From contig NZ_JAFEUU010000008.1 of NCBI RefSeq assembly GCF_017355885.1, positions 1 to 64,000 of the forward strand: DNA of 64,000 nt, given 5' to 3'. The translations under genes and the position numbers were made by a program. Source of the DNA: Sabulicella rubraurantiaca (lineage in GTDB: Bacteria > Pseudomonadota > Alphaproteobacteria > Acetobacterales > Acetobacteraceae). Positions 10,644 through 48,030 of this stretch are shown piece by piece (position 1 is the first letter of the stretch; each line of letters opens with the position of its first letter). The notes under the pieces are model-generated. The model saw only the letters and a program-made list of their open reading frames with translations. It had not been told where the DNA came from and did no database searches.

Positions 10644-11504
10644 CAGGCTCTCCCATCCTGTTCTGACTGTAGAGTGAAATGCCCTGCAGTGGCGAGACTT
10701 GATCCCCAGCAGAACGACCCGCGCCTCTTGCTTCCTGCATTGTGTTCCAATCGGTCAGGACCTCGTTCCGATAGCACACAGCAGTCACCCTGCCGATGAT
10801 GGCCGAGACACGGATCGGCGGCTTGTCCACGACGTGCGGTCAGGAGCCGGCCTGGCGAGCCAATTCAGGCCTGTGGGTCGGGAGTCCTGGGACCGCAAAC
10901 CATCCGATGGGCCGAGTCCTTGTCGATGCTGCATCGTTTACCGATTGCGGCCGGAAGCCATGGCCTTGTCGAGGAGCTGCCGCAACAAATGTTGGTGGCA
11001 AGTGGCCCGCAGGTGGAGCAGAGCGGCCAACTCCAGACATGAGAGGCCAATGGCCTCGCGCCGCGCCTGCTCGGGAGGTCGGATGGATCGCCTGCGCCTC
11101 TGCTCCCTAAAAATCGGGAACGGAAGATGCGAAGGCCACCCGACCAACGCTCGGCGAAAACGTGAGCCCGCCTGCGCTCATCGAAGCGACAGCGCAGCCA
11201 TGGAAGGGGCGAGCCACCGAACTCTACATCCAGAATTCACATGGACACTGGCCAAGAATATGGCCCAGGCCGCCGTCAACCACGCGGAATTCGGGATCTG
11301 CATCTTCCATCTCGATGCTTGGCCACTATATGGAGCACATCAGCTTTTATTGGTTTTAGTGCGCTCTTCCTGCTCCTGCCTGAGCGCCGGGCCCGCCCAT
11401 CCCAGAAGAAGATTGATCGGACGCGCAATCCTGTGCGGCCGCGACCTGCGCATGGATGTGGCGCCGATCCTCAGACGGCGTCGCCGAGAAAAAAGACGAC
11501 AAGC
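10644..11504. other. Gene-poor stretch with only weak small frames
   Basis: About 860 bp with no recognisable gene. The best frame is on the minus strand at 10938-11147 (69 codons). Its second half (EQARREAIGLSCLELAALL and on) has GC-rich third positions and could be helical, but it has no clear ribosome site or known family, so it is not called as a gene. The rest is low in coding signal. Confidence 0.45.
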
Positions 11505-35096: not shown

Positions 35097-35304
35097 ATGC
35101 GGTCCGACGAAAGCGCCTCCCAAGGCAGCCACGTGACAAGGGACCTGATTGCGGGCCTTGTGGGCGCGGTGGCCAGCGTTCCGTCCGGTCTCGCAACCGC
35201 CTCCTTGGCCGGTGTGAAGCCCATCGCCGGCATCTAAACCAGCATCTTCGCCCCCTTCGCCGGCGGCCTTCTGGTGTCCGCCCAACGGATGTTCATCTCC
35301 GTCA
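35097..35304 (+). pseudogene. SulP transporter N-terminal fragment with stop codon
   Basis: RDLIAGLVGAVASVPSGLAT, then AGVKPIAGI*TSIFAPFAGG, then LLVSAQRMFIS. It matches residues ~10-75 of the SulP at 36194 nearly base for base, but TAC (Tyr) has become TAA at 35235-35237. Homology stops at about 35302 and AT-rich sequence follows. It begins two bases after the stop of the FPASDP gene. A decayed third SulP copy. Confidence 0.85.
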
Positions 35305-35958: not shown

Positions 35959-36114
35959 ATGAAGTTCCGCAACGTCGAAGCTGTGGAGGTCTCCTTTTCG
36001 GTGATCCCGGTGGCGGAAGGCGGCACGCGTGCGATGATGACCGTCCGCTACGCCGATGGTGTTTCGGAGCGCTTCGTCCGCGAGGATGTCCAGCAGGATT
36101 GGGCGCGCACCTAG
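35959..36114 (+). CDS. Small hypothetical protein (51 aa)
   Basis: MKFRNVEAVEVSFSVIPVAE, then GTRAMMTVRYADGVSERFVR: two or three short strands followed by an acidic helix, ending QQDWART. AAAGGA lies eight bases before the ATG, and third positions are GC-rich, so this short frame is credible. It lies 80 bp before the SulP gene on the same strand. Not recognised. Confidence 0.55.
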   Translation: MKFRNVEAVEVSFSVIPVAEGGTRAMMTVRYADGVSERFVREDVQQDWART

Positions 36115-36193
36115 ATCCGCCATAGATCGCCGTGACCGGGCCGAGGCGGTCTCGGCCCCAGCGGTTATGCTGCGGTCGAAAGGCGCCCGGGCG

Positions 36194-37903
36194 ATGAGCG
36201 AGAGCAGCGGGAAAAGCGGGAATTTCATGAGGGATCTGATCGCCGGCCTGGTGGGCGCGGTGGCCAGTGTCCCATCTGGTCTCGCAACCGCCTCCCTGGC
36301 CGGGGTGAACCCCATCGCCGGCATCTACACCAGCATCTTCGCCCCCTTCGCCGGCGGCCTTCTGGTGTCCGCCCAGCGGATGTTCATCTCCGCCACGGCC
36401 GCCTCAGCGCTCGCGGCCGGCGAGGCGATCAGCGGCGTGCCGGAAGAGCGCCGTCTGGACGCGATGATGATCGTGACCCTCGCGACAGGCGCCTTCCTGG
36501 GCCTCTTCGCGCTGATGCGCGCAGGGCGGCTGATGAAATACGTCTCCCACGCCGTCATGACGGGGTTCCTGATGAGCGTGGCCGTCGTGGTGGTCCTCGA
36601 CCAGACGATGCCGCTCACGGGCTATGACCCGCGCGAGGGGAACACGCTCTTCCAGTTTTGGAGCCTTCTGACCAATCTTGGCGATGTCCATCTGCGGACC
36701 GTGGCGGCCGGAGCGGTCGCATTTATGACGGCCCTTGTCCTGGCACGAACCCGCCTCGCCCCCGTGGCCTCGGTTATCACCATGATCGTCCCCGCGCTGT
36801 TGGTGCTGGCCCTCGGCTGGTCAGACGTGCGGGTGGTAGCCGATGCCGGAGGCATGGAAGGGGGCCTACCCCTTCCGCGGATGCCCTCTTTTGATCTGAT
36901 CAGCCCAGACCTCCTGCTCAGCGCCTTCTCGGTGGCCGCGATCATCGCCATCCAGGGTGCCGGGGTGAGCCAGAGCCTCACCAACATCGATGGCAAGCCC
37001 ATCAGCGTCGACCGAGACCTGCTGGCGCAAACCGCCAGCAACGCTGCCGCAGGGGCGTTCGGCGGGATTCCCGCTGGCGGTTCAGTCGGGCAGACCGCCC
37101 TCAACATGTCCGTGGGCGCAAGAACACGCTGGGCGAGCGTGGCCTGCGGCGTCTTCCTGCTGCTGATCCTCTTGTTTCTCTCGAGGCCTGTGGGCTTCGT
37201 CCCCATGACGGCCTTGGCGGTGCTCATGATCATCGCCGGGCTTGGAGCAATCAATGTGGACGACGCAAGGTCGATCTGGGCCGTGGGCTGGACGCCCCGG
37301 ATTGCGACGTTCGTCACCTTTGTCGCAGGCATTGTCTTCTCGCTCACCGTGGCGATCCTGGTCGGGATCGTGCTTTCCACCACCCTCGCTGTGGTGCGGG
37401 CTGGCAATGACGTCCGCCTGCGCCGCCTCGAGCGCGACGAGAGCGGTGTGCTGGTGGAGACGGATGTTCCCGACAAGCTCGGTGCCGGCCACGAGGTGAT
37501 GGCCATCAATGTCTATGGCAGCCTGTTCTTTGCCGGCGCCCGCACCCTGGCTGAACGGCTTCCCCAGCCGGACGGGGCCGACCGACCGGTGGTCATCCTG
37601 CGCCTGCGCGGGCACAGCCACGTCGGAGCGACGTTGGTCGAAGTGCTCAAGGAATATGCCGGCAAGCTGAAAGCGGCCGGCGGGCGCCTTTATCTCACGG
37701 GGCTCGACCCCGCGATCATGGAACCGCTCACACGAGTGTGCCGGATCTCCGGGGACAAGGAGGTGGCGCTTTACGCGGCCACCGATCGCCTGGGGGCCTC
37801 GACCCGCGAGGCGGTGGAGGACGCTAAGGTCTGGCGCTACGAGGGGGAGGGCGCAGACAAAGAAGATGCCAATGGCTCCACAGAGGCAGGAAGGTCAGCA
37901 TGA
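36194..37903 (+). CDS. SulP family anion transporter with STAS domain, copy 1
   Basis: 569 aa. Inner-membrane carrier for sulfate, bicarbonate or another oxyanion. The N-terminal RDLIAGLVGAVASVPSGLA and GLYTSIFAPFAGGLL (here AGIYTSIFAP) are SulP marks; some 10-12 membrane helices follow, with NIDGKPISVDRDLLAQ in a loop. The C-terminal STAS domain starts near residue 430 (MAINVYGSLFFAGARTLAER, VVILRLRGHSHVGATLVEVL). ATG 36194 is chosen by alignment with copy 2 and GAAAGG upstream. Its stop overlaps the start of the region-1.1-like gene. The anion is not known. Confidence 0.9.
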   Translation: MSESSGKSGNFMRDLIAGLVGAVASVPSGLATASLAGVNPIAGIYTSIFAPFAGGLLVSAQRMFISATAASALAAGEAISGVPEERRLDAMMIVTLATGAFLGLFALMRAGRLMKYVSHAVMTGFLMSVAVVVVLDQTMPLTGYDPREGNTLFQFWSLLTNLGDVHLRTVAAGAVAFMTALVLARTRLAPVASVITMIVPALLVLALGWSDVRVVADAGGMEGGLPLPRMPSFDLISPDLLLSAFSVAAIIAIQGAGVSQSLTNIDGKPISVDRDLLAQTASNAAAGAFGGIPAGGSVGQTALNMSVGARTRWASVACGVFLLLILLFLSRPVGFVPMTALAVLMIIAGLGAINVDDARSIWAVGWTPRIATFVTFVAGIVFSLTVAILVGIVLSTTLAVVRAGNDVRLRRLERDESGVLVETDVPDKLGAGHEVMAINVYGSLFFAGARTLAERLPQPDGADRPVVILRLRGHSHVGATLVEVLKEYAGKLKAAGGRLYLTGLDPAIMEPLTRVCRISGDKEVALYAATDRLGASTREAVEDAKVWRYEGEGADKEDANGSTEAGRSA

Positions 37904-38166
37904 CGACTGACGCGTGGGAGCCGGCTCTGGACCGGCTCATCGAAATCGGCCGAGAGCGCGGATACGTCACCGTTGCTGAGCTAAGCGCTGCGATACCGTC
38001 GGAAAAGGTGAGCGCTGTCATGGTGATGCTGTCGGAGATGGGAGTGGGCATCGTCACGAAGGACCCGACCGCGGACGGAGGATCTGTTGTCGAGAGCCCG
38101 CGCGGACCGCTGAGTCCTTTGCCCCTGCATTCCGGGGCCGAAGCGCCCTTGGACGGGAACCCGTAG
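37900..38166 (+). CDS. Stand-alone sigma-70 region 1.1-like small protein, copy A
   Basis: 88 aa, acidic. LDRLIEIGRERGYVTVAELS matches the first helices of sigma-70 region 1.1, and LSEMGVGIV the last. No other sigma regions are present. The ATG overlaps the SulP stop (ATGA), so translation is probably coupled. It is more diverged than copy C: the D-E-I-N of region 1.1 is A-E-L-S here. The C-terminal tail ESPRGPLSP and SGAEAPL is shared with copy C. In sigma factors region 1.1 blocks DNA binding; any effect here on polymerase is untested. Confidence 0.7.
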   Translation: MTTDAWEPALDRLIEIGRERGYVTVAELSAAIPSEKVSAVMVMLSEMGVGIVTKDPTADGGSVVESPRGPLSPLPLHSGAEAPLDGNP

Positions 38167-38347
38167 TTCCTCTCTGGAAGGTGCGGCGGGGGCTGTCTGC
38201 CTCGGCACGTTCTCAGCCTTTTAATTCCTTTTTCATGCTTTCTGCCCCATCTTCAGCGGACAAAGCCGTTGTCAGACCGGCGTCCTTCGCCCTGGTGCAG
38301 CAGCATCCGCCCCTGCGTAAGGTTGAGGCCGCGTTGGAGGAACTGCC

Positions 38348-39790
38348 ATGGTGCCCAGCCGCATGTTCTTTTCCGCGGGCGTTCTCGCCTGTGGCCTTCT
38401 CGCGGTCGGTGTCCCGGGTACACCTGCGCTCTCCCAGCCGACCGCTTCGCAGACCAGCGCTTTCAGTCTCGCCGATCTGGTTGAGCGTGTGGCACCGGCG
38501 GTGGTTCGCGTGACGGTGGTCGGCCGGGCACAGGTGGCAGAGAACGCGGTGCCGCCCGAGATGCGCGGCTCACCGCTTGAGGAGTTCTTCCGACGCTTCG
38601 GCGGTGGCGGCCGCGGCCGCGGGCTGGGCGGGCCGCAGCCCCGACAGCCCATGGGCCAGGGCTCGGGCTTCATCATCGACCCCAGCGGCTTCGTGGTGAC
38701 CAACAACCACGTCATCGGCAACGCCGAGCGGGTCACCGTTGAACTCGCCGATGGGCGCGAGTTGCCGGCGCGCGTGGTCGGCAGCGACCCGCAGACCGAC
38801 GTCGCCCTCTTGCGCATCGAGGCGGGCGGCGCACTGCCCACGGTCTCCTGGGGGGACAGCGATCAACTTCGCGTGGGCGATCCGGTGCTCGCGATGGGCA
38901 ATCCCTTCGGCCTGGGCGGCACGGCCACCTCGGGCATCGTCTCGGCTCGCGGCCGCCAGATCGGCGCCGGCCCCTATGACGACTTCATCCAGACGGATGC
39001 CTCCATCAACCCGGGCAACTCGGGCGGGCCGCTCTTCAATGCCCGTGGTGAGGTCGTGGGGGTGAACACCGCGATCTTCTCGCCCTCCGGCGGCAACATC
39101 GGCATCGGCTTCGCCATTCCCTCGCAGCTCGCCCGGCGCGTGGTCGAGGATCTGCGCGATGACGGAAAGGTTGAGCGCGGCTGGCTCGGTGTTTCCCTGC
39201 AGCCGCTGGACCGCGAGCTGGCCCAGGCGCTGGGCGTCGAGGAGGGAGGCGCTCTCCTGGCCTCCGTCGAGCCGGGCTCACCGGCCGACCGGGCGGGGCT
39301 GAAGGCGGGCGACGTGGTGACGCAGGCGGGCGACCGCCCGGTGCGCGGTCCGCGCGACCTGTCGGGCGCCGTGGCCACGGCACGGCCAGGGAGCAGCCTC
39401 AACCTCACAGTCATCCGCGACGGGCAGCGCCGCGAGCAGCAGGTGAGCCTGGGCACGCCGCCCGATCGGCGCGAGGTTGCGGCTCGTGGGGGGCAGCAGC
39501 AGCCCAGGGAGCAAAGCACGGGCGCGCTGGGCTTGGCCCTCGGGCCTCGGCAAGGCGGGGGCGAGGGAGCTTCCGTGATGCGTGTCGCCCCCGACAGTGC
39601 CGCCGCTGAACGCGGCCTGCAGCCGGGCGACGTGATCCTTCGCGTCGGCAACCAAGAGATCAAGGGGCCGGGCGATTTCGTGGCGGCGATCGAAGCCGCA
39701 CGCCAGGCGGGCCGCCCTGTGGTGGCGCTGCAGATCCAGCGCGGCGAGGCCACCAGCTTCATCGCCCTGCCGCTGCAGCGACAGGGCTGA
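38348..39790 (+). CDS. HtrA/DegP-type periplasmic serine protease
   Basis: 480 aa. A signal peptide (FFSAGVLACGLLAVGVPG) is followed by a trypsin-like domain with His in VTNNHVIG, Asp in QTDVALLRI and Ser in NPGNSGGPLF, all intact. Two PDZ domains follow (LGVSLQPLDRELAQALGVEE; ALGLALGPRQGG). A Gly/Arg-rich loop near residue 80 precedes the catalytic His. GGAGGAACTGCC before the ATG is close to ideal. It handles misfolded envelope proteins. It lies between two SulP genes, but no shared transcript is shown. Confidence 0.95.
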   Translation: MVPSRMFFSAGVLACGLLAVGVPGTPALSQPTASQTSAFSLADLVERVAPAVVRVTVVGRAQVAENAVPPEMRGSPLEEFFRRFGGGGRGRGLGGPQPRQPMGQGSGFIIDPSGFVVTNNHVIGNAERVTVELADGRELPARVVGSDPQTDVALLRIEAGGALPTVSWGDSDQLRVGDPVLAMGNPFGLGGTATSGIVSARGRQIGAGPYDDFIQTDASINPGNSGGPLFNARGEVVGVNTAIFSPSGGNIGIGFAIPSQLARRVVEDLRDDGKVERGWLGVSLQPLDRELAQALGVEEGGALLASVEPGSPADRAGLKAGDVVTQAGDRPVRGPRDLSGAVATARPGSSLNLTVIRDGQRREQQVSLGTPPDRREVAARGGQQQPREQSTGALGLALGPRQGGGEGASVMRVAPDSAAAERGLQPGDVILRVGNQEIKGPGDFVAAIEAARQAGRPVVALQIQRGEATSFIALPLQRQG

Positions 39791-39877
39791 GCGCAAGACG
39801 GGAGGTGCTGAAACGACGGCGAGACGCCGTGTGTGGCTCCTCCAAAAGCGAAGCATGCTTCTGCCGGCAAGGGCGTC

Positions 39878-41611
39878 ATGGCGATAAGCGAGGCCACCAG
39901 CAAAAGTGGGAACTTGGCCAAGGACCTCGTCGCCGGTCTCGTGGTCGCGGTGTCCAGCGTCCCCTCTGGGCTCGCGACTGCGTCTCTGGCAGGGGTGAAC
40001 CCCATCGCTGGCATCTACACCAGCATCTTCGCGCCCTTGGCCGGCGGTTTCCTGGTGTCCGCCCAGCGGATGTTCGTCTCGGCGACGGTCGCTTCAGCTC
40101 TCGCGGCCAGCGAAGCGATCAGCGCCGTCCCGGATGCTCAGCGAATGGACGCGATGGTTCTCGTGACCCTCGCGACCGGTGCGTGGCTCGCGATCTTCTC
40201 GCTGCTGCGGGTCGGACGGCTGATGAAATATGTCTCCCACGCCGTGATGACAGGGTTCCTGATCGGCGTGGCGGTGGTGGTGGTCCTCGACCAGACAATG
40301 CCGCTCACAGGGTACGACGCGCCCGAGGGCAAGACGCTCTTTCAATTTTGGAGCCTTCTGACCCATCTGGGCGACGTCCATCTGCGGACCGTGGCCGTGG
40401 GTGTGCTGGCCTTTCTGACGTTCTTTGTTTTTACGCGCACTCGGCTGGCCATGGTGGCTTCGGTCATCACCATGGTCATCCCCGCCTTGGTCGTCCTGGC
40501 CCTGGGCTGGTCGGACGTGCAGCTCGTGGCGGATGCGGGAGGCATGGAGGGGGGCTTGCCGCTTCCTCGGTTGCCGGCGCTGGAATTGATCAGCGCGAGC
40601 CTCTTGCTGAGCGCCTTCTCTGTGGCCGCGATCGTCGCCATCCAAGGCGCCGGGGTCAGCCAGAGCCTGACCAACATCGACGGCAAGCCCATCAGCGTCG
40701 ATCGGGATCTGTTGGCGCAGAGCGCCGGCAACATCGCCGCAGGCCTGTTCCGTGGGATTCCGGCCGGCGGCTCGGTCGGGGAAACCGCCCTCAACCTTTC
40801 CGCTGGCGCCAGGACGCGCTGGGCCAGCGTGTTCTGCGGCGTCATGTTGCTGGCGATCCTCCTGTTCTTCTCGAAGCCCGTTGGCTTTGTTCCGATGACC
40901 GCCTTGGCGGTCCTGATGATCATCGCCGGGATCGGGGCAATCAATGTGGAGGACGCCCGCGCGATCTGGGCCGTGGGCTGGACCCCGCGGATCGCCGCCT
41001 TTGTCACTTTTGTCGCGGGCGTCGTCTTCTCGCTCACTGTCGCGGTCCTGGTCGGGATCGTGCTGTCCACGACGCTCGCGGTGGTCCGGGCGGGGAATGA
41101 TGTCCGGCTGCGGCGGCTCCGGCCCGACGAAAGCGGCGCAATGGTGGAAGCCGACGTGCCCACTAAGCTCGAGGCGGATCACGACGTGATGGTCATCAAC
41201 GTCTATGGTAGCCTCTTCTTTGCGGGTGCCCGCACCCTGGCGGAGCGGCTCCCTTCCCCGGAGGGCGCTGACCGGCCCGTCGTCATCCTGCGTCTGCGTG
41301 GCCACAACCATGTCGGAGCGACACTCGTGGAGGTGCTCACGGAATATGCAGGCAAGCTAAGGGCAGCTGGTGGGCGGCTTTACCTCACGGGGCTGGAGCC
41401 CGCGCTCATGGAGCCGCTCGCCCGTGTTTGCAGAATGACAGGGCATCAGGATGTGGCCCTCTACGAAGCCAAGGAGCGCCTCGGCCACTCGACCCGCGAA
41501 GCGGTGGAGGACGCCCAAGTGTGGCGCTATGAAGGAAACGGCACGTCCGCAGAGGGGGTCGAGAACGGCAAGGCGGCGAGCGAAGGGGACAACCGCTGGA
41601 CCCGGTCCTAA
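39878..41611 (+). CDS. SulP family anion transporter with STAS domain, copy 2
   Basis: 577 aa, close paralogue of copy 1 over its whole length (KDLVAGLVVAVSSVPSGLAT; NIDGKPISVDRDLLAQSAGN; MVINVYGSLFFAGARTLAER). ATG 39878 aligns with copy 1; upstream in-frame ATG 39833 adds 15 residues without a good ribosome site. Downstream lies a truncated region-1.1-like gene, as beside copy 1, so the SulP plus region-1.1 pair was duplicated as a unit. Substrate unknown. Confidence 0.9.
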   Translation: MAISEATSKSGNLAKDLVAGLVVAVSSVPSGLATASLAGVNPIAGIYTSIFAPLAGGFLVSAQRMFVSATVASALAASEAISAVPDAQRMDAMVLVTLATGAWLAIFSLLRVGRLMKYVSHAVMTGFLIGVAVVVVLDQTMPLTGYDAPEGKTLFQFWSLLTHLGDVHLRTVAVGVLAFLTFFVFTRTRLAMVASVITMVIPALVVLALGWSDVQLVADAGGMEGGLPLPRLPALELISASLLLSAFSVAAIVAIQGAGVSQSLTNIDGKPISVDRDLLAQSAGNIAAGLFRGIPAGGSVGETALNLSAGARTRWASVFCGVMLLAILLFFSKPVGFVPMTALAVLMIIAGIGAINVEDARAIWAVGWTPRIAAFVTFVAGVVFSLTVAVLVGIVLSTTLAVVRAGNDVRLRRLRPDESGAMVEADVPTKLEADHDVMVINVYGSLFFAGARTLAERLPSPEGADRPVVILRLRGHNHVGATLVEVLTEYAGKLRAAGGRLYLTGLEPALMEPLARVCRMTGHQDVALYEAKERLGHSTREAVEDAQVWRYEGNGTSAEGVENGKAASEGDNRWTRS

Positions 41612-41619
41612 TCCTTGAG

Positions 41620-41745
41620 GTGTCTTCGGGATTTATCGAACGCTTCCTGGCCACCGTGTCGGAGGCGGGCGTGAACGTCACCGAAGGAGACGAGGCCGGG
41701 GACGGCGAGAAAGCCTTCGCCGAGAGCCCGCGCGTTCCTTCATCT
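41620..41745 (+). pseudogene. Region 1.1-like fragment, copy B
   Basis: SSGFIERFLATVSEAGVNVT, then EGDEAGDGEKAFAESPRVP, nearly equals the second half of copy C (FIEHVLATLSEAGVNVTEGD). The first half is missing and the frame runs on into unrelated sequence. It starts nine bases after SulP copy 2, where copy A also lies relative to SulP copy 1. Remnant of the duplicated pair. Confidence 0.75.
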
Positions 41746-41958
41746 TTGGCGCCATGGCCCGGACCGATGCACGGGCCGGAGACTTCAGGATGGCGCCCTG
41801 CGTCGCATCGGCGCAAAAGCCGCCGCGCTCCCAGCGGGGAACCGGGAGCATCGCATGTCGCTGGCTGGGATTTCCGCGCGATGTTCTGCACCGGGCTGCC
41901 GCGCTTCCTCAGAGCCGGCTAGCCTCGTCGACGAGCACAAGGGGGGAAGAGCGCCGAA

Positions 41959-43932
41959 ATGGTCCATCAGCAAGACCCGTCCCAATCTCTTGAGGTCGAG
42001 GATGTCGGCAGCAATCCGGCTCCCGGCCGTCCAATTGGCAGCCTCATCGAGGCGCGGCTCTCGCGCCGTGCGGCCCTGCGGGGCTTGGTTGGCGCCGGCG
42101 CGGTAGGCGCTTTCGTCGAGACCCTGTTGGAGGGCGCACAGGCACAGCCGCTCGCGGTGCCGCGCGAGGGCGGTCCTTCCAGCCTGACGTTCGCAGAGCT
42201 GAGGCAGCAACTCAGCCAGACGCACGCTGTGGCTGAGGGCTACGACGTGCAGATGGTGATCCGCTGGGGTGACCCTGTGTTAGCCGGCGCACCGCCCTAT
42301 GACCCGCGCAACCTGACCGCGCAGGCCCAGGCGCTGCAGTTCGGCTACAACTGTGACTACCTCGACTACTTTTCCTTGCCGATGGGCTCCGGCAGCTCGG
42401 ACCATGGTCTCCTCTGCGTAAACCATGAATATACCAACACAAACCTGATGTTTCCGGGCATCGGCGAGGGCCGCGCGGCACGAGGCCGCACCAACCGGGA
42501 GCAGGCTGCCGTCGAGATGGCAGCGCACGGCATGACTGTCGTGGAAATTCGGCGCGAAAACGGCACTTGGCGAAGCGTGCCGGGCGGCTCCTTCAACCGC
42601 CGCATCACCATGCACACGCCGATGCGCATCAGCGGCCCCGCTGCTGGTCACCCGCGCATGCAGACCGGCGGCGACCCTTCGGGCACGCGCGTGCTCGGCA
42701 CACTCAACAACTGCGCCGGCGGCAACACCCCTTGGGGCACGGTCATCACGGCGGAGGAGAACTTCAATGGCTACTTTGGCGGCGCCGCAGCCGAGACCGG
42801 CCCTGAAGCCGTAAACCACCGCCGATACGGCGTTCAGCGCAACGCCACCTGGGCCTGGGGGCGCTTCTTTGACCGGTTTGACCTGGATAAAGAGCCGAAC
42901 GAGATCAATCGCTTCGGCTGGATCGTCGAGTTCGATCCCTTTGACCCGGAGAGTGTGCCGGTGAAGCGCACGGCTCTTGGACGCTTCAAGCACGAGGGCG
43001 CGACGCACGCGGTCAGCCATGACGGACGCGTTGCCTTCTACTCCGGCGACGACGAGCGGTTCGACTACCTGTACAAGTTCGTCACGGCGCGCGCTTGGAG
43101 ACCGGACGATCGCGCCGCCAATCGTGACCTTCTGGACGAGGGCACGCTGTTCGTCGCGCGCTTCGAGGAACGCGGCGTCCTGCGGTGGCTGCCACTCGTC
43201 TTCGGCGAGGGGCCCCTGACCGAGGCGAACGGCTTTCAGAGCCAGGCGGATGTGCTGATCGAGACGCGCCGTGCCGCGGATCTGCTCGGCGCGACCCCAA
43301 TGGACCGGCCGGAGGATGTCGAGACCAACCCGGTCAACGGGCGCGTCTACGTCATGCTGACGAACAACAGTCGCCGCACGGCGCAGCAGGCGAACCCGGC
43401 GAACCCGCGCGCGAACAATGCGCATGGACATGTGGTGGAGCTGATTCCGCCGGGCGCGGGAACCGACCGCGTGGATCACACCGCGACCGAGGCACGCTGG
43501 GACTTTTTTCTGCTGGCCGGCAAGCCCGGACTCGATGCCGGCGCGCGCTATCACCGGGCCACGAGCGACAATGGCTGGCTCTCCTGTCCCGACAACGTGG
43601 CCTTTGACACCAAAGGGCGCATCTGGATCACGACCGACGGCGCGGCGGAGAATGCGGGCATTGCCGACGGCGTCTGGGCAGCCGATACCTCTGGCTATGG
43701 CCGTGCCTTGACGCGCCTGTTTTTCCAGGCGCCGACCGGGGCGGAGGTGTGCGGCCCTCGCTTCACACCAGACGACCGCACGCTGTTTCTGGCCATCCAG
43801 CATCCCGGCGAGGACCCGGGCAGCACCTTTGAACGACCTTCAACCCGCTGGCCGGACTTCCGGGATGGCGAGCCACCCCGGCCGTCGGTGATTGCCGTCG
43901 TCAAGCGTGATGGCGGTGAGATCGGGAGCTGA
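41959..43932 (+). CDS. PhoX-type (DUF839) alkaline phosphatase, Tat-exported
   Basis: 657 aa. Twin Arg in LSRRAALRGLVGAGAVGAF gives a Tat signal. GYNCDYLDYFSL, SSDHGLLCVNHEYTNTN, CAGGNTPWGTVITAEENFNG and VSHDGRVAFYSGDD are DUF839/PhoX marks, with acidic ligands suited to calcium and iron. It releases phosphate from organic esters in the periplasm or outside. GGGGGAAG lies ten bases before the ATG. It sits between SulP copy 2 and a DUF421 gene, suggesting an oxyanion-scavenging region. Confidence 0.92.
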   Translation: MVHQQDPSQSLEVEDVGSNPAPGRPIGSLIEARLSRRAALRGLVGAGAVGAFVETLLEGAQAQPLAVPREGGPSSLTFAELRQQLSQTHAVAEGYDVQMVIRWGDPVLAGAPPYDPRNLTAQAQALQFGYNCDYLDYFSLPMGSGSSDHGLLCVNHEYTNTNLMFPGIGEGRAARGRTNREQAAVEMAAHGMTVVEIRRENGTWRSVPGGSFNRRITMHTPMRISGPAAGHPRMQTGGDPSGTRVLGTLNNCAGGNTPWGTVITAEENFNGYFGGAAAETGPEAVNHRRYGVQRNATWAWGRFFDRFDLDKEPNEINRFGWIVEFDPFDPESVPVKRTALGRFKHEGATHAVSHDGRVAFYSGDDERFDYLYKFVTARAWRPDDRAANRDLLDEGTLFVARFEERGVLRWLPLVFGEGPLTEANGFQSQADVLIETRRAADLLGATPMDRPEDVETNPVNGRVYVMLTNNSRRTAQQANPANPRANNAHGHVVELIPPGAGTDRVDHTATEARWDFFLLAGKPGLDAGARYHRATSDNGWLSCPDNVAFDTKGRIWITTDGAAENAGIADGVWAADTSGYGRALTRLFFQAPTGAEVCGPRFTPDDRTLFLAIQHPGEDPGSTFERPSTRWPDFRDGEPPRPSVIAVVKRDGGEIGS

Positions 43933-44044
43933 GGTGCTCTTGGCCCGGACCTTGGAAACGGATCCGCGGCGCGAAAAGGACTTCGGGCACACGTCCTGTC
44001 CCAACTTTGCCGTCCTGCGGCAGACCTCAGCCACGGGTGTGTCG

Positions 44045-44549
44045 CTAGGATTTCGAGGTCTCCCTGCGCACGACGGTGACCTTGCCGTCGGACTCAACGT
44101 GGGCAGATTTCACCTCCTCGATGCCATCAATGCCTTCCATCCGCAGATGGGCCATCAATTCCTCCTCGGTGAGGAATTCCTGCCGCATATTGCGGCGCAG
44201 GAGCTTGCCGTTCCGCACGATGGGCAAAGGCTGCGCGGACACCAGCCGCTCAAAGAAAAGGCACGCGGTAGCTCAGGAGGTTTATCAGGTAGTTCCAACC
44301 CATGAAGACGACAACGAGCAGGAGCCCGTCCGCGACGGAGGTGTGGCCGCCCATCCCCTCTGCCACGGCCTCGGCGATCAGGAGGATGAACACCAGGTCC
44401 ATCGCCGCAAGCTCGCCGCCACTGCGTCTCGGCATCAAGCGCATGAGAATGAGGACGCCGAAATACAGGGCTGTGCCGCGCACAAGGATTTCGATGAGCG
44501 CGGCTTGCGGCACGAAAATGCTCGACCAGTCGTCTGGCAACAGAAGCAT
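44045..44549 (-). pseudogene. DUF421 (YetF-like) membrane protein, frameshifted
   Basis: The first frame (44549 to 44250) gives three membrane helices and the DUF421 core RRSGGELAAMDLVFILLIAE; the second (44242 down to 44045) gives QPLPIVRNGKLLRRNMRQEF, then LTEEELMAHLRMEGIDGIEE, the YetF C-terminal domain. Removing one base in the T run near 44252-44254 joins them as VPFLERLVSAQPLP. GGAG lies before the ATG at 44549. Dead or rescued by slippage. Confidence 0.8.
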
Positions 44550-44779
44550 GATTCTGGCTCGTCTCCTCTCCGGTTACAGGGAGGCTCCGGCGGCCTCAAA
44601 CCTGCAACAGGACGGAACCACCTGGATCCAGAAGAGGTTGGCGCAGGGAGGACTTGAAGCGCCCAACGAAACTTGCTGCTGGGTGGTAGAGCGCAGCTTG
44701 GCTTGGACAGCCCACTTCCGCCGTCTCATTCCTCGCTCCGAGCGCCGCGCACGAAGTGCTGCCGTCGCTGTTGGCGCTG

Positions 44780-45427
44780 CTACCTGTAGCCCATTCGCGC
44801 CAGGGCGTCGGCGCGGCAGCACTGATCACTACCCATCCCCATCTGGCATCCAGCCACGAAGTACCGAAACAGCGCTCGGCACGCGTCCTGATTGCGCTGA
44901 CTGCACTGTGCGGCCTGCATACGGGTCTGGTTGTCGGCTGTAGCCGGGACCTCGAACGGCGAGCACGAGCTTGGGCTCGGCAAAGGAGGAGGTGGCGGTC
45001 TCGCTGGTTCGTAGCGGGGCGCAGGCTGGGGCGGGGCCGGTGGAGGAGGCCGGAACATGATTTCCAACATCCGATCCATGGTCCTCTCCGCCACTTGGCG
45101 GCGGCAGTTCATGTTGGCCGTGAGCGCCGCCCCGAGCGCCTCTTGCGTCAGGCCCTCCCACTCTGCAGAGCCGATCCGCCCCGAGGCCGTGCCACCGAAC
45201 CGGAGCACCCTCGCGGCAAGGCTGTTCGTTTCAGCCCTGACTTCCGCCCCGAGTTGGGATTCGCTTATTCTGCCCCTCTGCTCGACGGTGGTGCACACGC
45301 GGGCAGCGTAGTTGCTGACATCAGCCATCAGCTCCCTCCGCGCCTCCGTCGACAATTGGGCGTCAGCCGGGGCGTGCCCGAAGAACAAGATCAGCGCAGT
45401 CACCACCAGCAGTCCCGACCGCGTCAT
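44780..45427 (-). CDS. Secreted hypothetical protein, Pro-rich middle, Cys-rich end
   Basis: 215 aa. Signal peptide LLVVTALILFFGHAPADA. A helical N-terminal half (ELMADVSNYAARVCTTVEQR) is followed by a Pro/Ala-rich linker (about residues 123-150), then a C-terminal stretch with five Cys (SSCSPFE; AAQCSQRNQDACR; VAGCQ; DQCCRAD), likely disulfide bonded. GAGGT precedes the ATG. Envelope protein of unknown role. Confidence 0.65.
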   Translation of the reverse strand: MTRSGLLVVTALILFFGHAPADAQLSTEARRELMADVSNYAARVCTTVEQRGRISESQLGAEVRAETNSLAARVLRFGGTASGRIGSAEWEGLTQEALGAALTANMNCRRQVAERTMDRMLEIMFRPPPPAPPQPAPRYEPARPPPPPLPSPSSCSPFEVPATADNQTRMQAAQCSQRNQDACRALFRYFVAGCQMGMGSDQCCRADALARMGYR

Positions 45428-45579
45428 GGCCGTACCTCAGACAGCAGTGCCAGAGTGCATGGTAAACTATGCGCTTGGCTCGCGCACCCGATTTTGCCTG
45501 GCGCGGCGTCGCCCCTGACTTGGCGCTGATCGTGCCCGAACACACATGTCGCCCGAGTTTTCGTGGCAGGAGCGACGTC

Positions 45580-45855
45580 ATGACATCTGACGCGTGGAGG
45601 CCGGCCCTGGACCGGCTGGTCACCCTTGGCCGAGCGCGAGGGTTTGTCACCGTGGACGAGATCAACACGACACTGCCGCAGCAGGAGGTTTTCCCGGGGT
45701 TCATCGAGCACGTCCTGGCCACCTTGTCGGAGGCGGGCGTGAACGTCACCGAGGGGGACGAGGACGGAGACGACGAGGAAGCCTTTGTCGAAAGCCCGCG
45801 CGGGCCTGCGCCTCTGCAATCCGGCGCAGAGGCGCCCTTGGAACCGGAGGCCTAG
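45580..45855 (+). CDS. Stand-alone sigma-70 region 1.1-like small protein, copy C
   Basis: 91 aa, acidic. ALDRLVTLGRARGFVTVDEI, then NTTLPQ, FIEHVLATLSEAGVNVTEGD: the helix order and the V-T-x-D-E-I-N signature of sigma-70 region 1.1 are clear. A second acidic run (EDGDDEEAF) and the tail ESPRGPAPL, SGAEAPL follow. AGGAG sits seven bases before the ATG. No region 1.2-4 follows. Its stop overlaps that of the convergent sulfatase by four bases. Longer and less diverged from sigma than copy A. Confidence 0.8.
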   Translation: MTSDAWRPALDRLVTLGRARGFVTVDEINTTLPQQEVFPGFIEHVLATLSEAGVNVTEGDEDGDDEEAFVESPRGPAPLQSGAEAPLEPEA

Positions 45856-47498
45856 GCGAGCCCGCGATATTGAAAGAACTCGTCAGGCGACATCACGTCG
45901 AGCTGCTTCGTGGCACCGGCCCTGATATAGCCGACGGCGGCCGCGTAGGCCTCCCAATCGGCCATCAGCTCCTTGAACTTGGCCGGCTCCTGCTCCGCAA
46001 GGTTGTCCATCTCGCGAGGGTCGGTGCGCAGATTGTAAAGGTGCCACTCATTCTCCCCATAGGGCGGCGGCACGAAGATCAGCTTCCAGCCATCCTTCAT
46101 GACGGTGCGGCACTCGAACATCTCGAAGCTCAGGGCGTCGAACGACCCACGCACGGGGTTCAGGGTGGCGCCCGTGAGGTAGGGCTTCCAGGACCGGCCG
46201 TAGAGCGGTGCCAAAGGCTTGCCATCGCGCTCGCCCGGTCGCCGGACGCCGACAAAATCGAGAATGGTGGGCGCGAGGTCCGTCACGTGCAGCAGCTGTG
46301 AGGTATCGACGCCGTGCCGGTGGATGCCTGGCCCGGCCAGGATCAGCGGAACCTGCGTGCCGCCCTCGTAGGTCGTGGTCTTGAAGTAGGAAAGCGGCGT
46401 GTTGGTCACCTCCGCCCAGCCACCGCCCAGGGACACGAAGGAGCCGATCCGCCCCATGTTCTCCATGCTGTTGTCGAAGTCGCGTTCGATCTGCTCCTCG
46501 GTGTTGGGCGGGTAGAAGTGCGGCTCCTTGGGGTTCGCCCCGTTGTCCGAAATGAAGATGACAAGGGTGTCCTCGAACTTGCCCTGCTGCTTCAGCAGGT
46601 CGAACACGCGGCCGATGTTGTGGTCGATGTTCTCGATCATGGCCGCATAGATTTCCATCTTGCGCGCCTGCGTCGCCTTCTCCTCTGCATCGAGGTCACC
46701 CCAGGCGGAGAAGAGGCCACTGCCCGGATTGCCGGGATGATCGGGGACCACGAGCCCCATCTCCTTCATCCGGGCCAGACGCCGGTCGCGGATGGCGTCG
46801 TAGCCTTCGTCATAGGCGCCCCGATAACGGTCGAGCCACTCGTCCGGCACCTGGATCGGGTCGTGGGGCGCGGTGAAGGCGAGGTAAGCAAAGAAGGGGG
46901 CGTCGTCCCCCTGCTCGGAGAGATAGCCGATCATCTTGTCGGTGTAGAAATCGGACGAGAAGAAGCCCTCCGGAAGTTCCTCAGTGACGTCCTTGCCATC
47001 CTCGTCGTAGCGGCTGTGGACCGCCTCCGCGCTGCTCAAGGGCCGGGCGTCGTGGAAGTGGCTGACGCCGCCCGCGAGAAACGAGAACACCCTCTCGAAG
47101 CCCCGGTCCTCGGGCCGGTAGCCCGGCAGCTCGCCCAGGTGCCACTTGCCCGCCATGTAGGTGCGATAGCCTTCGGCCTTCAGCACCTCCGCGATGGTCA
47201 GCGTCCGATGGTTGAGCGGCCCCTCGTAGCCGGGCTGCAGATACTGATTGGTGGCGTGGAAGGGCGGCATGTTGCCGAGCCCTGCCTGGTGGTTGTCCAC
47301 GCCCGTCAGGAGCATGGCGCGCGTGGGGGCGCACAGCGACGAGACGTGGAAGTTGCGGAACCGCACGCCCTTCTCCGCCAGGGCCTGGAGGACCGGCGTC
47401 CGGATCTCGCCGCCATAGGGCGCGATGTCGGAGAAGCCCATGTCGTCAACGACGATCAGCAGGATGTTGGGGCGCTTGTTCTGGGGGGTGTCTGGCAT
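45852..47498 (-). CDS. Sulfatase (arylsulfatase type, formylglycine-dependent)
   Basis: 548 aa from ATG 47498, with GGGAG seven bases upstream. KRPNILLIVVDDMGFSDIAP supplies the metal-binding Asp pair, and SSLCAPTRAMLLTG holds the CxPxR motif whose Cys becomes formylglycine. GKWHLG and a late DNGANPKEPHFYPP complete the family pattern. It frees sulfate from organic sulfate esters. No signal peptide is seen at this start, and no maturase gene lies nearby. It fits with the SulP genes in sulfur scavenging, by inference. Confidence 0.92.
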   Translation of the reverse strand: MPDTPQNKRPNILLIVVDDMGFSDIAPYGGEIRTPVLQALAEKGVRFRNFHVSSLCAPTRAMLLTGVDNHQAGLGNMPPFHATNQYLQPGYEGPLNHRTLTIAEVLKAEGYRTYMAGKWHLGELPGYRPEDRGFERVFSFLAGGVSHFHDARPLSSAEAVHSRYDEDGKDVTEELPEGFFSSDFYTDKMIGYLSEQGDDAPFFAYLAFTAPHDPIQVPDEWLDRYRGAYDEGYDAIRDRRLARMKEMGLVVPDHPGNPGSGLFSAWGDLDAEEKATQARKMEIYAAMIENIDHNIGRVFDLLKQQGKFEDTLVIFISDNGANPKEPHFYPPNTEEQIERDFDNSMENMGRIGSFVSLGGGWAEVTNTPLSYFKTTTYEGGTQVPLILAGPGIHRHGVDTSQLLHVTDLAPTILDFVGVRRPGERDGKPLAPLYGRSWKPYLTGATLNPVRGSFDALSFEMFECRTVMKDGWKLIFVPPPYGENEWHLYNLRTDPREMDNLAEQEPAKFKELMADWEAYAAAVGYIRAGATKQLDVMSPDEFFQYRGLA

Positions 47499-47532
47499 TG
47501 TCCGCTCCCGTCCATGCCCAAAGGGGTGGTTG

Positions 47533-48030
47533 TCAGCTCCCGGCGCCGTCCAGCCGGACCTCGACCCGCCGGCTTTCCAGGTCCTCCATGCCTGGCGTCG
47601 GACCGCGGCTCTCGCGGCGCAGCCGGCTCGCCGGCACGCCGTCGGCCACCAGGAAGTCATAGACGACGCGGGCGCGCAGCCGGGCCAACAACACGTTCGC
47701 TTCCCCGGTCCCCCGCGGGGAGGCGTATCCCACAATCCTCAATCGAGCCGCAGGGCGCGCCTTGGCCCGCTCGGCAAGCTCGCGCAGGGCCACCATCGCC
47801 GGATCGTCCATGGCGGCCGACCAGGAGGGGAAGAAGACCGGCAGGGCAGACCGTCTCACCACAAGGGGGCCGGCCTCCCCTGGCGCTGTCGAGGCCGAAG
47901 GGAGCACTTGTGTGGTGCCAGGGACGGCAACGGCTTTTCCAGGGGACACGGCGACCAGAGCTTCATTCTGGGAGGCGCAGGCCGCGAGGGCAGTTATCGC
48001 CAAGGCAGCAAGGACGGAAGCAGGGCGCAT
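47533..48030 (-). CDS. OmpA-like domain lipoprotein
   Basis: 165 aa. A signal with lipobox LAAC (about residue 18) anchors it to the outer or inner membrane. The C-terminal half is OmpA-like: ALRELAERAKARPAARLRIV, then GYASPRGTGEANVLLARLRA, with the Asn and Arg that contact peptidoglycan. It is 34 bp upstream of the sulfatase and may be co-transcribed. A tether to the cell wall is the likely role. Confidence 0.82.
   Translation of the reverse strand: MRPASVLAALAITALAACASQNEALVAVSPGKAVAVPGTTQVLPSASTAPGEAGPLVVRRSALPVFFPSWSAAMDDPAMVALRELAERAKARPAARLRIVGYASPRGTGEANVLLARLRARVVYDFLVADGVPASRLRRESRGPTPGMEDLESRRVEVRLDGAGS

Follow-up and report, generated by a model that had tools for sequence, protein, structure and literature searches.

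Stand-alone sigma-70 region 1.1 proteins in Roseococcus and other Acetobacteraceae, with a tentative role at RNA polymerase

Identity and architecture of genes A and B

Two small genes in the window, the 64-kb stretch of DNA analysed here, encode what are by sequence real stand-alone sigma-70 region 1.1 proteins. The window is part of contig C63 in a 5.02-Mb genome of 64 contigs, and all numbering refers to the whole window. Gene A (37900..38166, plus strand) and gene B (45580..45855, plus strand) are open frames of 88 and 91 aa. Both products match the region 1.1 profile PF03979, A at 39 bits (E 8e-10) and B at 53.6 bits (E 2e-14), over the gathering cut-off of 22.5 bits, bearing out the region 1.1 identity proposed in an earlier sequence-only reading of this DNA. 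RpoD, A, and B are the three PF03979 matches across the genome, and a sequence comparison of B with the PDB gave an RpoD chain as top match (7ye1_F, E 1.9e-11). The same reading had seen no other sigma region, and RpoD stripped of region 1.1 indeed found no match to regions 2-4 in the 64-kb window (tblastn, E 1e-3). At 88 and 91 aa and without regions 2-4, A and B are not group 1 (primary) sigma factors. No Rfam family reached its gathering score between 33000 and 50000.

A, B, and the A of a sister species share the N-terminus MTxDAWxPALDRL, followed by a region 1.1 core, G[RK]xRG-[YF]-[VI]-TVxE, a linker, and a tail ending in PLxSGAEAP. The pattern V-T-x-(D/E)-E-I-N, first ascribed to all loci, is exact in B (VTVDEIN), but A reads VTVAELS; likewise (S)EAGV(N)V occurs as SEAGVNV in B and in a fragment at 41620-41745, the counterpart in A being SEMGVGIV. 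As described, A and B have the tail ESPRGP...SGAEAPL in common, of which the fragment retains ESPR only. Five residues that the orthologue of A has between helices 2 and 3 are missing from A, and the N-terminus of the sister's B differs from the shared one and appears rearranged. The best start site of B is 45580, an ATG preceded by AGGAG; AGGAAGG is found upstream of A, and Shine-Dalgarno-like AGGA stretches precede A, B, and the sister's A. Both proteins are acidic, as had been noted, with a net charge of -14 for B (pI 4.05) and -7 for A (pI 4.38), compared with -13 for RpoD region 1.1 plus linker; the sister's B carries -7 and its A just -3.

AlphaFold2 models of A and B, built from a four-sequence alignment, had mean pLDDT values of 72.7 and 70.5, respectively; most of the domain scored 69-89 and the tail about 50. 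Foldseek placed both models nearest to solved sigma 1.1 domains, the top match being 5mww for B (E 0.013, probability 1.00) and for A (E 0.026). The eight top PDB matches of B comprise sigma 1.1 or sigma-containing polymerase entries and a SigA-RpoC model (9a58), and the six top matches of A are of the same kind; no match of either model reached E 0.001. The models of A and B have the helical region 1.1 fold, with weak E-values and modest pLDDT. For region 1.1 identity, the sequence evidence is stronger than the fold evidence.

The SulP-A-B locus and its counterpart in a sister species

Upstream of A lies a gene for a SulP anion permease with a STAS domain (SulP1, 36056..37903, plus strand, start possibly 36194; PF00916 E 3.6e-55, PF01740 E 3e-5), whose stop codon overlaps the start codon of A in an ATGA. 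The interval between A and B holds, among others, a DegP/HtrA-like protease gene with PDZ domains that separates the units (38348..39790, plus strand; PF13365, PF13180), a SulP1 paralogue (SulP2, 39833..41611, plus strand; PF00916 E 5.5e-57, 80% identity), a B-like remnant behind SulP2 (41620..41745, plus strand), and a PhoX alkaline phosphatase gene (41959..43932, plus strand; PF05787 E 8e-160). A sulfatase gene (45852..47735, minus strand; PF00884 E 1.1e-59) is convergent with B. The two SulP genes, PhoX, and the sulfatase agree with the anion-scavenging neighbourhood described earlier. The first reading had also counted three loci as a family of three near SulP. A and B stand as two such genes, but the 41620-41745 fragment is ruled out as a third equal gene: it is a copy of B without the 5' part, with 71% protein identity to B residues 36-80 and 86% DNA identity over 108 bp, and its 42 aa alone match neither PF03979 nor any other Pfam family. 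A further SulP piece of 63 residues (84% identity) lies at 35109-35297. SulP2, the B remnant, and this SulP piece suggest that the SulP-A-B unit has been duplicated repeatedly, with partial loss.

In Roseococcus sp. MDT2-1-1 (G248) the gene order is SulP, A, B, and a convergent sulfatase. Matching blocks, with gaps, are collinear with the window over an interval that starts at SulP1 and extends beyond the sulfatase as far as the window end. SulP2, as a second copy, does not follow this order, nor do three short matches that lie upstream of SulP1. The RpoD proteins of the two genomes are 98% identical, and the two are sister species in the RpoD tree (local support 0.86). Identity is 84% for SulP and 88% for the sulfatase, whose orthologue lies beside the sister's B, against 66-68% for A and 47-48% for B; A and B diverge much faster than RpoD between the sister species. 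Nei-Gojobori dN/dS values, which are pairwise point estimates for window and sister genes, were 0.25 for A over 88 codons (domain 0.29, tail 0.19), 0.46 for B, 0.15 for SulP, and 0.22 for the sulfatase. Synonymous change exceeds amino-acid change in A. Both A and B would be functional genes, apparently under selection, A clearly and B less so, the constraint on B being less clear at a dN/dS of 0.46.

The C-terminal tail was examined with a model of five Roseococcus tails. All five were recognised in leave-one-out runs at 32-49 bits, with none of 1000 shuffles doing as well; the tail of the truncated free copy in G266 scored 26.7 bits (0/2000). The window remnant reached 6.9 bits, with 8 of 2000 shuffles as good. 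RpoD was not clearly recognised by the model (204/2000), nor were the G248 C9 tail (889/2000) and the one Skermanella tail scored (1312/2000). The copy on contig C36 of the sister genome has a Roseococcus-type tail. Sharing of the tail by G359 was rejected: the earlier 71 bits came from self-matching, and the tail scored 3.2 bits (66/2000) when left out of the model. At E 1e-6 the tail was detected in the window's own genome only among 385 class genomes, scoring being limited to 18 or fewer first-look candidates in each. A tail pattern matched 24 stretches of the named genome collection, one of which, from Roseococcus sp. MDT2-1-1, was confirmed. The tail was also discarded as a DNA repeat: its pattern occurs exactly twice, each time in the window, and 11 times with three mismatches, versus 3 for the reversed control.

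Occurrence and origin of free region 1.1 domains

Protein B was used to search 397 Acetobacteraceae genomes, and the 28 with at least two matches were followed up. Free region 1.1 genes or remnants are present in at least eight of the 397, namely the window genome (G000), G248, G359, G266 (truncated), G271, G209, G112, and G024; the number is a lower bound because the follow-up covered genomes with two or more matches and not single-match genomes. Most surveyed Acetobacteraceae genomes gave no sign of such a gene, and free region 1.1 proteins are lineage-restricted. As to the neighbours of such genes, which the sequence-only reading had suggested examining, relatives of this SulP and of this sulfatase were absent from the ten other free-domain stretches (8-16 kb, two from the sister genome; tblastn, E 1e-3). 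Two region 1.1 domains occur in one frame in G271, G209, G112, G024, and on G248 contig C36. Stretches with a second PF03979 match comprised 14 with a full RpoD-like sigma factor and 11 with a free domain (8-16 kb, two from Skermanella) and no such factor (blastp, E 1e-60). Six second matches (G330:C41, G346:C1, G384:C150, G202:C43, G275:C22, and G396:C60) were called full-length from long open frames only. At E 1e-3, however, one of those 11, locus L107 of G266, showed a sigma-like piece of 58 residues (50% identity, E 1.7e-11; 10826-10999) about 2.6 kb from its truncated free domain; this piece is perhaps, from its sequence, the remnant of a second sigma gene.

Among 21 Roseococcus genomes two have free copies, and two others (57% and 74% complete) lack even an RpoD match. 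A close SulP (E 1e-60) is found in the same two genomes as the free genes. Two of the 397 family genomes have strict relatives of this SulP (E 1e-170), as does one of 167 class genomes, the window's own (E 1e-130); plasmids contained none at E 1e-100. Seven of the 21 Roseococcus genomes encode a sulfatase at E 1e-60, the 88% version being confined to the same two and the other five reaching 37-38%. The SulP linkage as general evidence is weakened, both genomes being sister species that count once, and the neighbours are accordingly weak evidence of function. Outside the family, two Skermanella plasmids encode a 150-aa free protein that already bears an NCBI name, so such proteins are already in databases; of 23 matching plasmid records, 2 carry the NCBI region1.1 name, in a collection whose gene table is incomplete.

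The free domains were compared with host RpoD proteins. A short-domain tree paired the G271 and the G359 free domain each with the RpoD of its own genome (support 84 and 92) and placed the second domains from G209 and G112 in a group with the G209 RpoD (87). With another taxon set, the G271 pairing dropped to a support of 41 and the G359 pair kept 87-88. In a comparison with 93 RpoD proteins (one, from G087, mis-extracted), 7 of the 18 free domains or remnants had their own RpoD as best or joint best match, and the other 11 did not. The seven cases are partly dependent, since they include B with its remnant and G112 with G024, and ties involve close relatives; such matches would be expected if the domain has to suit the polymerase of its host, or if it simply descends from host rpoD. 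Codons of shared residues agree at about 44-67% among the seven, which does not indicate recent copying. In a tail-group tree test repeated without the mis-extracted G087 RpoD, grouping the G359 domain with the Roseococcus ones was rejected by the AU test (p 0.017 under LG+G4, 0.010 under JTT+F+G4) but not by SH under LG+G4 (0.07), and grouping it with the B-like ones only gave AU p 0.04 and 0.003. A Roseococcus-only grouping was not rejected (p 0.36 and 0.22). These sequence comparisons suggest that the free domains probably have more than one origin or have undergone domain replacement. Concerted evolution of the second domains of genus g25 was considered and dropped, as the AU test did not reject a single origin (p 0.12) and G271 support was 41.

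Possible action on RNA polymerase

In housekeeping sigma factors, region 1.1 serves as an integral, movable plug. A putative role of free copies as a DNA mimic or polymerase modulator was raised in the sequence-only reading. We tentatively favour, at less than even confidence, the reading that A and B are functional RpoD-derived region 1.1 proteins that dock in trans in the RNA polymerase channel. The acidic helical domain would enter the downstream-DNA channel of either the core enzyme or alternative-sigma holoenzymes without a region 1.1 of their own, and would add, or compete for, the gating that the housekeeping holoenzyme owes to region 1.1. Open-complex formation could then be tuned when the anion-scavenging genes are expressed, a link that would arise from translation next to SulP, and the proline-rich tail PLxSGAEAPL may serve as a second contact or a turnover handle.

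The PF03979 scores, the 7ye1_F match, and the sigma 1.1 fold matches argue for channel docking, as do the lack of an RpoD-like match in the 11 free-domain stretches versus its presence in 14 of 14 second-sigma stretches, the dN/dS of A near SulP and the sulfatase, the conserved tail, and the ATGA overlap. The own-RpoD matches also point this way, though they fit plain descent too. In the portion of PMC3778932 consulted, isolated E. coli R1.1 in trans lets Gp2 inhibit holoenzyme without R1.1, and also E-sigma38, which naturally lacks it; these results favour docking and make trans action of free domains physically plausible. According to the same portion, transcription in that assay was not antagonised when isolated R1.1 was added on its own, without Gp2, which speaks against docking; the results as a whole suggest a role on holoenzymes without region 1.1 and not plain inhibition. 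Also against docking are the fast evolution of A and B, the dN/dS of B, the five residues missing from A, the weak Foldseek E-values and pLDDT of 70-73, the 11 of 18 domains for which the own RpoD is not best, and the patchy occurrence.

A rather unlikely alternative is that the region 1.1 fold has been repurposed, away from RNA polymerase, as a protein-binding module for the SulP/sulfatase locus, for instance as a partner of the SulP STAS domain. Such a role would suit the overlap of the A start with the SulP stop, the fast divergence of A and B, and a tail of their own not found in RpoD. It would also suit the co-occurrence of free genes, close SulP, and the 88% sulfatase in the same 2 of 21 Roseococcus genomes, but this is one event in two sister species, and five more Roseococcus genomes have the distant sulfatases (37-38%) without a free region 1.1. 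Moreover, the sister's C36 copy carries the same tail in a 12-kb stretch without any SulP relative (tblastn, E 1e-3), and the free domains of other genera have no relative of this SulP nearby.

That A and B are functionless, decaying by-products of repeated duplication of the rpoD 5' end is unlikely. Decay is recorded in the remnant at 41620 and in the truncated G266 copy with its short sigma-like piece, and would account for the patchy occurrence among family genomes, the closeness of several free domains to their own RpoD, the seemingly rearranged N-terminus of the sister's B, and the dN/dS of B. Against it stand the constraint on both domain and tail of A, the AGGA-type ribosome-binding sites, a gene order conserved in two species, and a tail that is not recognised in RpoD. 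Very improbable is a third account, in which A and B are mobile-element cargo modulating the host polymerase like phage-encoded inhibitors: patchy distribution, the Skermanella plasmid copies, and a PemK-like gene adjoining the G271 copy are in keeping with it, but of 13 viral-contig stretches that matched a pattern, none was confirmed as a relative of B, and phage matches were weak (six records at E up to 1; best E 9e-4, 55-58% query cover).

We regard a broader scheme as distinctly doubtful: that Acetobacteraceae repeatedly split off region 1.1 as an independent RNA polymerase regulator, gating the channel in trans for sigmas that lack it, and that in Roseococcus this regulator became wired to sulfur and phosphate scavenging. 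A natural free region 1.1 would be a ready tool for asking whether gating is open to regulation in trans and whether alternative sigmas can borrow it, a question that the portion of PMC3778932 consulted addresses with engineered fragments.

A and B resemble region 1.1 of RpoD/SigA (PF03979) in profile score, predicted fold, acidic character, and linker; they differ in lacking regions 2-4, in having their own start, ribosome-binding site, and C-terminal tail, and in a locus beside SulP in two Roseococcus species. Free region 1.1 proteins are not described in titles or abstract openings among the literature matches listed. The Skermanella plasmid protein (WP_202685066.1, 'RNA polymerase sigma factor region1.1 domain-containing protein') is likewise a free domain with no sigma regions nearby, but proteins of its type have 150 aa, a hydrophobic C-terminal segment (by eye), different neighbours, and a non-Roseococcus tail (one tested). 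T7 Ocr and SPO1 Gp44, DNA-mimic inhibitors of RNA polymerase, are similarly small, acidic, and suggested to occupy the DNA site. Their fold differs from that of region 1.1, and in contrast to them the domain of A and B descends from a sigma factor.

Region 1.1 copies in the sister species

In the sister species Roseococcus sp. MDT2-1-1, one contig (C36) carries a double region 1.1 gene in a single reading frame (L065 7474-8379, minus strand). The two region 1.1 domains of this gene are separated by the Roseococcus-type tail, the C-terminal tail common to A and B that ends in PLxSGAEAP. No SulP relative was found across the 12-kb stretch of this contig (L065). In the SulP-A-B-sulfatase stretch of the same genome, the DNA between A and B includes a segment (L064 7854-7917), upstream of the present start of B, that matches the beginning of window gene B at 81% identity. 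The N-terminus of the sister species' B therefore seems to have been rearranged.

Broken or apparently broken genes in the window

A SulP fragment of 63 residues (35109-35297, plus strand) sits upstream of SulP1 and is 84% identical to the SulP1 N-terminus, with a match at the DNA level as well. This is a third SulP copy, now broken. Two neighbouring open frames at 44045-44549 (minus strand) resemble fragments of a single membrane protein and look like two parts of one disrupted gene, which we take to be YetF/DUF421-like; a Pfam search of the open piece 44250-44549 at E 1e-4 returned no match.

Region 1.1 in other genomes and phages

In the Acetobacteraceae genome G266, whose free region 1.1 gene is truncated, a sigma-like piece of 58 residues (L107 10826-10999, minus strand) lies close to that gene. 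Directly past the two-domain region 1.1 gene of another family member, G271, is a PemK/MazF-like gene (L099 8456-8785, minus strand). The free region 1.1 proteins of the Skermanella plasmids (L068 7980-8432 and L069 7980-8432) have a C-terminal segment that by eye is hydrophobic and membrane-like.

Several Acetobacteraceae possess a second full-length RpoD-like sigma factor with its own region 1.1 (stretches L109, L110, L111, L114, L115, L116, L117 and others). Separately, six phage records (H24-H29) gave weak region 1.1 matches, and four of the six are annotated "RNA polymerase sigma factor".
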